A stretch of 64,000 nt of DNA from Haloarcula mannanilytica (GTDB lineage Archaea; Halobacteriota; Halobacteria; Halobacteriales; Haloarculaceae). The position numbers were made by a program, and so were the translations under genes. Within the stretch, counting starts at the first letter, position 1, and each line of letters opens with the position of its first letter. A model generated the notes under the pieces. The model worked only from the letters and a program-made list of their open reading frames with translations, was not told the DNA's origin and ran no database searches. The stretch is taken from NCBI RefSeq assembly GCF_005406125.1, contig NZ_BIXZ01000001.1, positions 1,302,001 through 1,366,000 on the forward strand. The letters are read 5' to 3'. Shown in pieces: positions 37,853 through 40,163 of the stretch.

Positions 37853-38569
37853 TCAGTCGGCACTCTGCCCGGCGAACGTCTCCGAGACCACTTCGGTCAG
37901 ATCGATCTTGTCAACGGTAATCGCGTCGACGTTGGCGAACAGGAAGCCGGCGAAGCCGACACGGATCAGCAGGCCGATGTACTCGGAGAGGACCGTTATC
38001 ACGAACGGGTCGAACACGTTCCCGATGGCGATGATCGCATAGGCGATGAGCATGCCGGTGAGGAACAACAGGAGGTTCCGGGACTTCCAGTGGAGCAGGC
38101 GCTGGTCGTCCGGGAGGGCGTCCGCGCGCCGCCAGATAGGGCCGGCAAACAGATACGCCAGCACTCCGTGGCCGACGACAGCCACCAGGATCCCAGCGAG
38201 GGCGATGGGACCGCCAGCGATAGCGGCCACGTTGAACGCGAGCACCTGAACCAGCGGAATCCCGGCGACGATGGCGAGCGTTCGGTGGGATTCGTTGGCG
38301 AGCAGGACCGTAACGACGTACAGCGTCGAGTAGGTGACGAAGTCATCGAGTATCTTCGGCAGATCCGTCTCACTGCCCGCGATATCGACGAATCCGATAC
38401 CCAGCGCCGAGAGAGCGGTCATCACCGTGGCGAATCCGACGACGCCAACGACCGGGTAGCAGTAACGTCGCTTGGCGGCCGGAAGCCGACGGAGCCAGGC
38501 CAGGAGGACGACCAGCGACGCGGTGTAGACGAGCGCCGAAACCGTCAGCACCATCTCGGTACTACTCAT
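37853..38569 (-). CDS. opsin-related seven-helix protein lacking the retinal lysine
   Basis: 238 residues with seven hydrophobic helices (about 5-26, 37-61, 74-91, 97-118, 121-143, 164-184, 188-214). [20 protein letters not shown] and the [16 protein letters not shown] and [10 protein letters not shown] stretches align with N. pharaonis sensory rhodopsin II. The Schiff-base Lys205 becomes Arg203 (codon at 37961-37963); helix-F retinal contacts Trp171/Tyr174/Trp178 are Thr171/Leu174/Ala178, Trp76 is Asp76 and Asp201 is Gly199. Asp75 and the transducer-contact Tyr199 (here Tyr197) remain. No lysine lies in helix G. It overlaps the upstream transducer by eight bases, the htrII-sopII order. Retinal binding in the usual way is therefore ruled out; the ligand is unknown. 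Confidence 0.85.
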
Positions 38570-40163
38570 CGGCTCCCCCCGAAGCTGGCCGCACGCTCGT
38601 CTGGTTCGGAGTTCCTCCAGCGTCCGTGGCGCTCGCCCGCGTCTCGAACGTCGAGAGCCGGTCGATGAGTTCCCGGGTCCGCGCAGAGAGGTCGTCGGCC
38701 CGCTGCCGGACGGCGCTCATCGTTTCGGCGGTTTCCTGGGCCGTATCGGCCAGGTCGTGGGACTGCCTGGCGACATCACTGGCGGCCTCGCCGACGGTGT
38801 CGATAGTTGCGGCCAGTTCTTCGGTTGCACTGGCACCGTCGTCGGTCGCCCGCGAGATTTCGGCCATCGCGTCGTCGACATCGTCGACAGTGTCAGTCAG
38901 TCGCTCGACGGCATCGCCGACCTGGTTGACGGTGGTCACGCCCGCACTGATGCGCTCGCTGGTGTGGTCCATCTCGTCGGCGACCTCGTCGACTTCCCCG
39001 CGAGCGCCCTCGACGATTCCCTCGATCTCGTCGATGGCTGCCTGGGTTTCCTCCGCGAGGGTCTTGACTTCCTCTGCGACGACAGCGAACCCGTCACCGC
39101 CGTCGCCGGCGTGTGAGGCCTCGATGTTCGCGTTCAGTGCGAGCATGTTCGTCTGTTCGGCGATGTCGTCGATCAGTTCAGTCGTGGCTGCCACGTCGTC
39201 CATACGGTCGTCCAGGTCAGTCACGAGCGCGTCGAGGTGGGTCACGGCGGTTTCGATCCCTTCGATGGCCTCGATGGCCGCCTCGGTCCGGTCCGCCCCG
39301 GTCGCGCCAACGTCGGCGGCTTCGCCGGCCTGTCGAGCGACCTCGTCTGTCGTTGAGGCGACTTCCTCGACGGTCGCGGACAGGTCGTTCGTTTCCTCGA
39401 TGGCCGTTTCGAGTTGGGTCGCCTGCGCCTCGATATCGCCGGCCAGTTCTCGAATATCATCGGCAAGGGACTGGTTGAGTTCCTCGATCTCCGTCGCGTC
39501 TGTGGCGACGGCTGTACTGGCTTTCTCAACGTCAGTCGCGAACTGCCGGATATCGTCGACAGTCTCGGAGAGACCGTCGGCCATCTCCTCGTAGGCCACC
39601 GAGATCCGTTCGACGGCATCGACATCAGTGTCAGCGTCGAGGCGTTGAGTGAAATCGCCGTCGGCCGCGGCCGTCATCGCGTCACCGATGTCGGTGGCGT
39701 GCTCGAGGAGGGTTTCGTTAAACTCCTCTGCGTCCTGTCGGGCCGCCTGTGCGTCTTGCTTGGCCTGTTCAGCCTCCTCGCGGGCGGTCTCTGACTCGTC
39801 GAACGCGTCGCTAAGGGAGTGGCGCATGCTGTCGAACGCGGATGCGAGACGCCCGAACTCGTCAGCACGGTCGACATCCGGACTGGTGTCGAGGTTCCCG
39901 TCCTCGATTGCCGTCGCAGCGTCGGTCAGTCGCCGGAGTTCGACCGCTGCGTTCCCGGCCAGCACGATAGCGAGCAATCCAAGATTGAGCGTTACGACGA
40001 ACAACGTCCCCGAAAGAGCCGCGAGCCCAGCCCCCTGATTTGCCGCGTGTGCGGCAAACACAGCCCCGAACCCGAGCGTGACCAGGAGCGTCACACCGAT
40101 TGCGAGCCCGATCCGCCGGCTGTAGTGGGCCACAACCCTCGTTCGGACGGTCGTCTCAGTCAT
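38562..40163 (-). CDS. HtrII-like methyl-accepting transducer
   Basis: 533 residues. Two N-terminal membrane helices (about 19-40 and 49-70) joined by a very short loop, as in NpHtrII rather than HtrI or a periplasmic-sensor MCP. A HAMP and a second HAMP-like region (about 70-205) precede the cytoplasmic coiled coil with the signalling hairpin [20 protein letters not shown]. Helix 2 keeps the Asn60-Leu-Gly-Leu that matches HtrII Asn74, the residue that contacts the receptor tyrosine. It would relay to CheA/CheW. Expressed with the opsin-related protein; TATA-like box 25-33 bases upstream. Confidence 0.9.

Follow-up and report, generated by a model that had tools for sequence, protein, structure and literature searches.

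The receptor-transducer locus

The stretch of DNA analyzed here (the window) comprises 64,000 nucleotides of the Haloarcula mannanilytica genome (contig NZ_BIXZ01000001.1, positions 1,302,001 to 1,366,000). Its reverse strand encodes a seven-helix receptor and, directly upstream, an HtrII-like transducer (Table 1). A preliminary description of this DNA had reported that the two genes overlap by 8 bases, and we confirmed both open reading frames and the bases common to them. The transducer gene lies directly upstream in 46 of 48 related receptor genes with enough contig and overlaps the receptor gene by 8 or 4 bases in 43, a spacing of -8 (or -4) thus being found again in most relatives.

Table 1. 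Features of the receptor-transducer pair, in window positions
Feature	Position	Strand	Basis
Seven-helix receptor of 238 aa, an opsin-related protein (ORP) of group-A type	37853..38569	-	ORF, homology; seven helices in low-confidence model
Arg203 codon CGT at the retinal-lysine position (NpSRII K205)	37961..37963	-	
Helix-C Asp75 (counterion position) and Asp76 (W76 in NpSRII)	38342..38347	-	
Tyr80, clade-invariant (Thr in SRII)	38330..38332	-	
Tyr197 (NpSRII Y199), transducer-bonding residue in SRII; invariant	37979..37981	-	
Receptor helices A-E (residues 1-152), fast-diverging half	38114..38569	-	
Receptor helices F-G (residues 153-214), conserved output half	37928..38113	-	
Overlap of transducer stop and receptor start, 8 bases, ATGAGTAG	38562..38569	-	
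HtrII-like transducer of 533 aa: two TM helices, HAMP and MCP signalling domain; periplasmic domain absent	38562..40163	-	
HAMP domain, transducer residues 70-118	39810..39956	-	
MCP signalling domain, transducer residues 295-457	38793..39281	-	
Transducer Asn60 in TM2 (NpHtrII N74), motif NLGLL	39984..39986	-	

Aligned with NpSRII, whose numbering is used for the positions that follow, the receptor shows the changes K205R, D201G, W76D, W171T, Y174L and W178A, along with Lys for R72 and Thr for Y51, and it retains D75, Y199 and D189. The earlier residue calls (Arg203, Gly201, Asp76, Thr171, Leu174 and Ala178) agree with this alignment. The helix-G Schiff-base lysine that marks a sensory rhodopsin II photoreceptor is replaced by Arg203. 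The only lysines in the protein are K33, K72, K162 and K221, and helix G has none, as had been described. None of the four is a candidate substitute for the retinal lysine: K72 occurs in the window protein alone, and the sole invariant lysine, K162, is located where helix F begins on the cytoplasmic side, which leaves no conserved lysine inside the membrane.

Two trivial explanations of the arginine were discarded. A base error in its codon, raised in the preliminary description as a possible refutation, is excluded: the lysine codons AAA and AAG are three base changes away from CGT, so that a single error would be insufficient, and every one of the 49 intact members of the clade described below carries arginine here, which rules out both a sequencing error and a mutation peculiar to this gene. 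Nor is the gene a decaying pseudogene, as its frame is open, its dN/dS is below 0.5 and its core is invariant.

The transmembrane (TM) region of the transducer matches NpHtrII at E=2e-17, and the extracellular loop is very short. Every feature of an HtrII-type transducer was found: two TM helices, a short loop, a HAMP domain, an MCP domain and the Asn74 equivalent in TM2. Because the loop is minimal, the transducer itself lacks a ligand-binding domain, and its input should therefore arrive via the receptor. In the SRII-HtrII pair, Asn74 of NpHtrII is the partner of Tyr199. The Asn74 position is occupied by Asn or His in the ORP transducers, and the surrounding NLGL motif occurs in 2 of the 15 MCPs of the window genome, namely, the SRII and ORP transducers only. 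The predicted Tyr199-Asn74 contact pair is thus kept on both sides of the receptor-transducer interface, an observation that is new here.

Kinship with sensory rhodopsin II and the haloarchaeal ORPs

A phmmer search with the window receptor alone matched NpSRII at E=4.8e-9. A profile of 18 orthologues matched NpSRII over the whole fold (E=7.1e-20), and hhalign aligned the ORP profile with a canonical opsin profile at 98.7% probability. Membership in the bacteriorhodopsin-like family, as suggested in the preliminary description, was therefore borne out by the group profile and missed by the single window sequence, which scored 10.6 bits against a Pfam PF01036 (Bac_rhodopsin) cut-off of 24.6 bits; an NCBIfam search of the receptor likewise assigned no receptor family. 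An AlphaFold model built from two sequences has seven helices but is weak (pLDDT 57), with the pocket and the Arg-Asp contact beyond its resolution; its best PDB matches are SRII entries, but we give the model little weight. Judged by sequence, the window protein is a true homologue of sensory rhodopsin II, with a likeness beyond chance. The resemblance to NpSRII/HtrII covers the fold, gene order, tight gene coupling, transducer TM region, Tyr199-Asn74 pair and D75, whereas the retinal lysine and the aromatic retinal pocket are gone, R72 is changed and D201 has become Gly.

The preliminary description knew of no archaeal transducer-coupled opsin relative lacking the lysine. Such proteins were in fact published by Becker et al. 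in 2016 (PMC4915679), who described 48 lysine-less haloarchaeal opsin homologues, named them ORPs, demonstrated transcription and proposed a role in non-light taxis. Their group A carries Arg at the lysine position, W76D, Y174L and W178A and keeps Tyr199, which bonds the transducer, and a HAMP/MCP gene is adjacent in 15 of 16 cases (PMC4915679). The window gene fits this description, and the claim of novelty consequently fails: on these features, the window pair counts as a further member of a family already described, the group-A haloarchaeal ORPs. It shares with group A the four substitutions, the retained Y199 and D189, the loss of R72 and Y51, the adjacent HAMP/MCP gene and sensory opsins as closest relatives. 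It differs in having Gln108, where the paper gives Met, and Ile127, where the paper gives mostly Thr/Ser; both are presented there as conservation patterns of group A, not as membership criteria (PMC4915679). Since positions 108 and 127 vary inside the clade (at 108, 26 of the 49 intact members have Gln and 20 have Met), neither residue bars the window protein from group A.

Other lysine-less opsin relatives are less similar. Group B of Becker et al. (2016) also consists of kin of the sensory opsins, but it has Leu/Phe at 205, Gly75, Tyr76 and mostly Trp80, keeps R72 and Y51, and forms a separate clade. Fungal opsin-related proteins are type-1 opsin homologues, some of them lysine-less, but theirs is an independent loss outside the haloarchaeal clade (PMC4915679). 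Group-A ORPs on three large haloarchaeal replicons (NZ_CP096660.1, NZ_CP081960.1 and NZ_CP119990.1) are annotated "bacteriorhodopsin," a misleading name.

Our orthologue search covered 146 genomes of the family and 392 of the order and returned about 50 group-A genes. In a tree built without the sequences of Becker et al. (2016), the Arg-bearing group A is one clade (SH-aLRT 100), apart from group-B-like and Lys-bearing rows; the tree separates it from a Leu/Phe group, a His group, a small second Arg type and the Lys-bearing sensory rhodopsins. Homology and phylogeny together show that the ORP descends from the sensory rhodopsin line, probably through loss of retinal. Purifying selection acts on the ORP (dN/dS 0.25-0.47), and the 49 intact group-A members share invariant Arg205, Tyr80, Tyr199, Lys162, Arg164 and Asn165. 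Among the aromatic residues that contact retinal, W76 is present in none of the clade, Y174 is mostly Leu and W178 mostly Ala.

Several lysine-less genes outside the intact group-A set were also seen. The second Arg205 type (L117:3962-4720 and L120:4024-4785) has SR-like Asp75, Tyr73, Tyr174 and Arg72, falls outside group A and likewise sits close behind an MCP-like ORF. A subclade with His at the lysine position includes L028 and L029, and probably L154 and L155. One ORP (L114:6960-7706) has Ser at that position, no acid at 75/76 and a 4-base overlap with an MCP gene. Finally, a group-A ORP in two frames behind an intact transducer (L115) is frameshifted and is probably a natural knockout.

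An acid occupies position 75 or 76 in 48 of the 49 intact members, L092 being without both. Of the 73 aligned rows, 56 combine a base at 205 with an acid at 75/76, 15 have neither and 2 are mixed; on the tree this co-occurrence is not significant, as only two or three independent changes lie beneath it. The pattern is for that reason a lead and not a result, and it suggests that the former Schiff base/counterion pair may persist as a fixed salt bridge.

Divergence of the two receptor halves

The locus, in the order ligA, ORP, MCP and aminotransferase, is syntenic across closely related genomes. Between the window and genome G013, the transducers are 93% identical over their first 470 residues and 89% overall, and identities of 88% for ligA, 88% for SRII, 98% for BR and 96% for HR compare with 58.5% for the ORP. 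The loss falls unevenly on the receptor: helices A-E are 50% identical (dN 0.43, dS 0.91), while helices F-G are 84% identical (dN 0.10, dS 0.44), with dS estimated by NG86 and rough at these distances. Identity begins to fall over the final ~100 bases of the transducer gene and is lowest over helices A-E. The end of the transducer gene (window positions 38562-38670) has diverged along with the start of the receptor gene; the divergent block therefore extends across the junction of the two genes.

This contrast between A-E and F-G, which sets the ORP apart from SRII, was absent in the SRII and BR genes of the same genomes, and we did not find it described in PMC4915679. Among 78 close pairs (transducers at least 85% identical; pairs not independent of one another), helices A-E fell behind the transducer in conservation in 76 cases and behind helices F-G in 77, and the largest differences lay in about five separate lineages. 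In the window case, the doubled dS suggests that the input half was exchanged for another allele. The genome sample contained no donor for the divergent helices A-E, and rapid evolution of these helices may be the cause instead; relaxed constraint or recombination can also produce fast divergence. A variable input half joined to a constant output half is as expected of a chemoreceptor tracking changing ligands. We tentatively suggest that the group-A ORPs may form a diversifying family of archaeal chemoreceptors derived from rhodopsins, in which helices A-E would undergo repeated replacement or rapid diversification at a fixed locus and helices F-G together with the transducer would serve as the constant output.

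Retinal supply in the hosts and the nature of the stimulus

CheA and archaellin are each encoded in 46 of the 47 host genomes, and 40 of the 47 are able to make retinal. Six near-complete genomes, each listed as 99% complete, keep ORPs without a canonical opsin or a retinal-forming oxygenase (Brp/Blh): neither PF01036 nor Brp/Blh (PF15461) was matched in G064, G266, G238 or G363, and in G122 and G080 the PF01036 matches were ORP-type only, with no Brp/Blh match. The G080 match lies close to the His-type ORPs. These hosts repeat, in other genomes, the report of eight such species by Becker et al. (PMC4915679). Near-complete G122 carries two group-A ORPs (L078 and L108), one of them with a transducer, and no CheA, CheW or archaellin was found in it.

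The proposal of the preliminary description, a transducer-coupled sensor independent of retinal, gains support from the loss of the lysine in every orthologue, the retained HtrII-like transducer and contact residue, the presence of CheA, and the several hosts without retinal synthesis. This functional idea coincides with the non-light-taxis hypothesis of 2016 (PMC4915679); our search of the open-access literature found no later functional work on archaeal ORPs. We consider it probable that the window pair is a non-photic, transducer-coupled seven-helix receptor resembling a chemoreceptor.

Three other readings were weighed. A sensor of membrane or bulk physical state (voltage, pH, salt or the membrane itself) acting through the charged Arg-Asp core and requiring no specific ligand would account for the nearly universal acid at 75 or 76 and for invariant Arg205 and Tyr80, but it would not be expected to diversify its helices A-E faster than all their surroundings, and we regard it as rather unlikely. 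We give little credit to continued light sensing, with retinal held noncovalently or another chromophore in a remodelled pocket. In its favour, the protein preserves the fold, D75 and the transducer interface, most hosts can make retinal, and Becker et al. left an alternate chromophore open (PMC4915679); however, the pocket aromatics W76, Y174 and W178 are lost, six hosts have neither canonical opsins nor Brp/Blh, the rapid change of A-E runs counter to the stability of A-E in SRII and BR, and a Halorubrum ORP related to group A showed no absorption band at 480-580 nm when supplied with retinal (PMC4915679). Still less credible is a mainly structural protein that keeps the transducer folded and senses little itself, for although the conserved parts are helices F-G and the transducer contact while A-E drift, core Arg205, Tyr80 and the acids are retained away from the interface and dN/dS is well below 1.

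For the chemoreceptor-like reading, the residues suggest that the buried Schiff base and its counterion would have been replaced by a permanent charge pair between Arg205 and Asp75/76. A putative stimulus, for which small polar or ionic molecules are the likeliest candidates, would reach a pocket formed largely by helices A-E and, by analogy with SRII, would shift helices F and G, with the Arg-Asp pair perhaps acting as the switch. The shift could then be relayed through the Tyr199-Asn74 contact to transducer TM2, HAMP and CheA, a route whose parts are present and along which the signal would presumably flow.

The interest of the window pair lies in its stimulus and in the division between input and output. 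What ORPs respond to has been a question since 2016, and it becomes testable through the sharp separation of a variable input half from a constant output half. If type-1 opsins have yielded chemical receptors, their history would resemble that of the animal GPCRs, where light sensors make up one of many branches.
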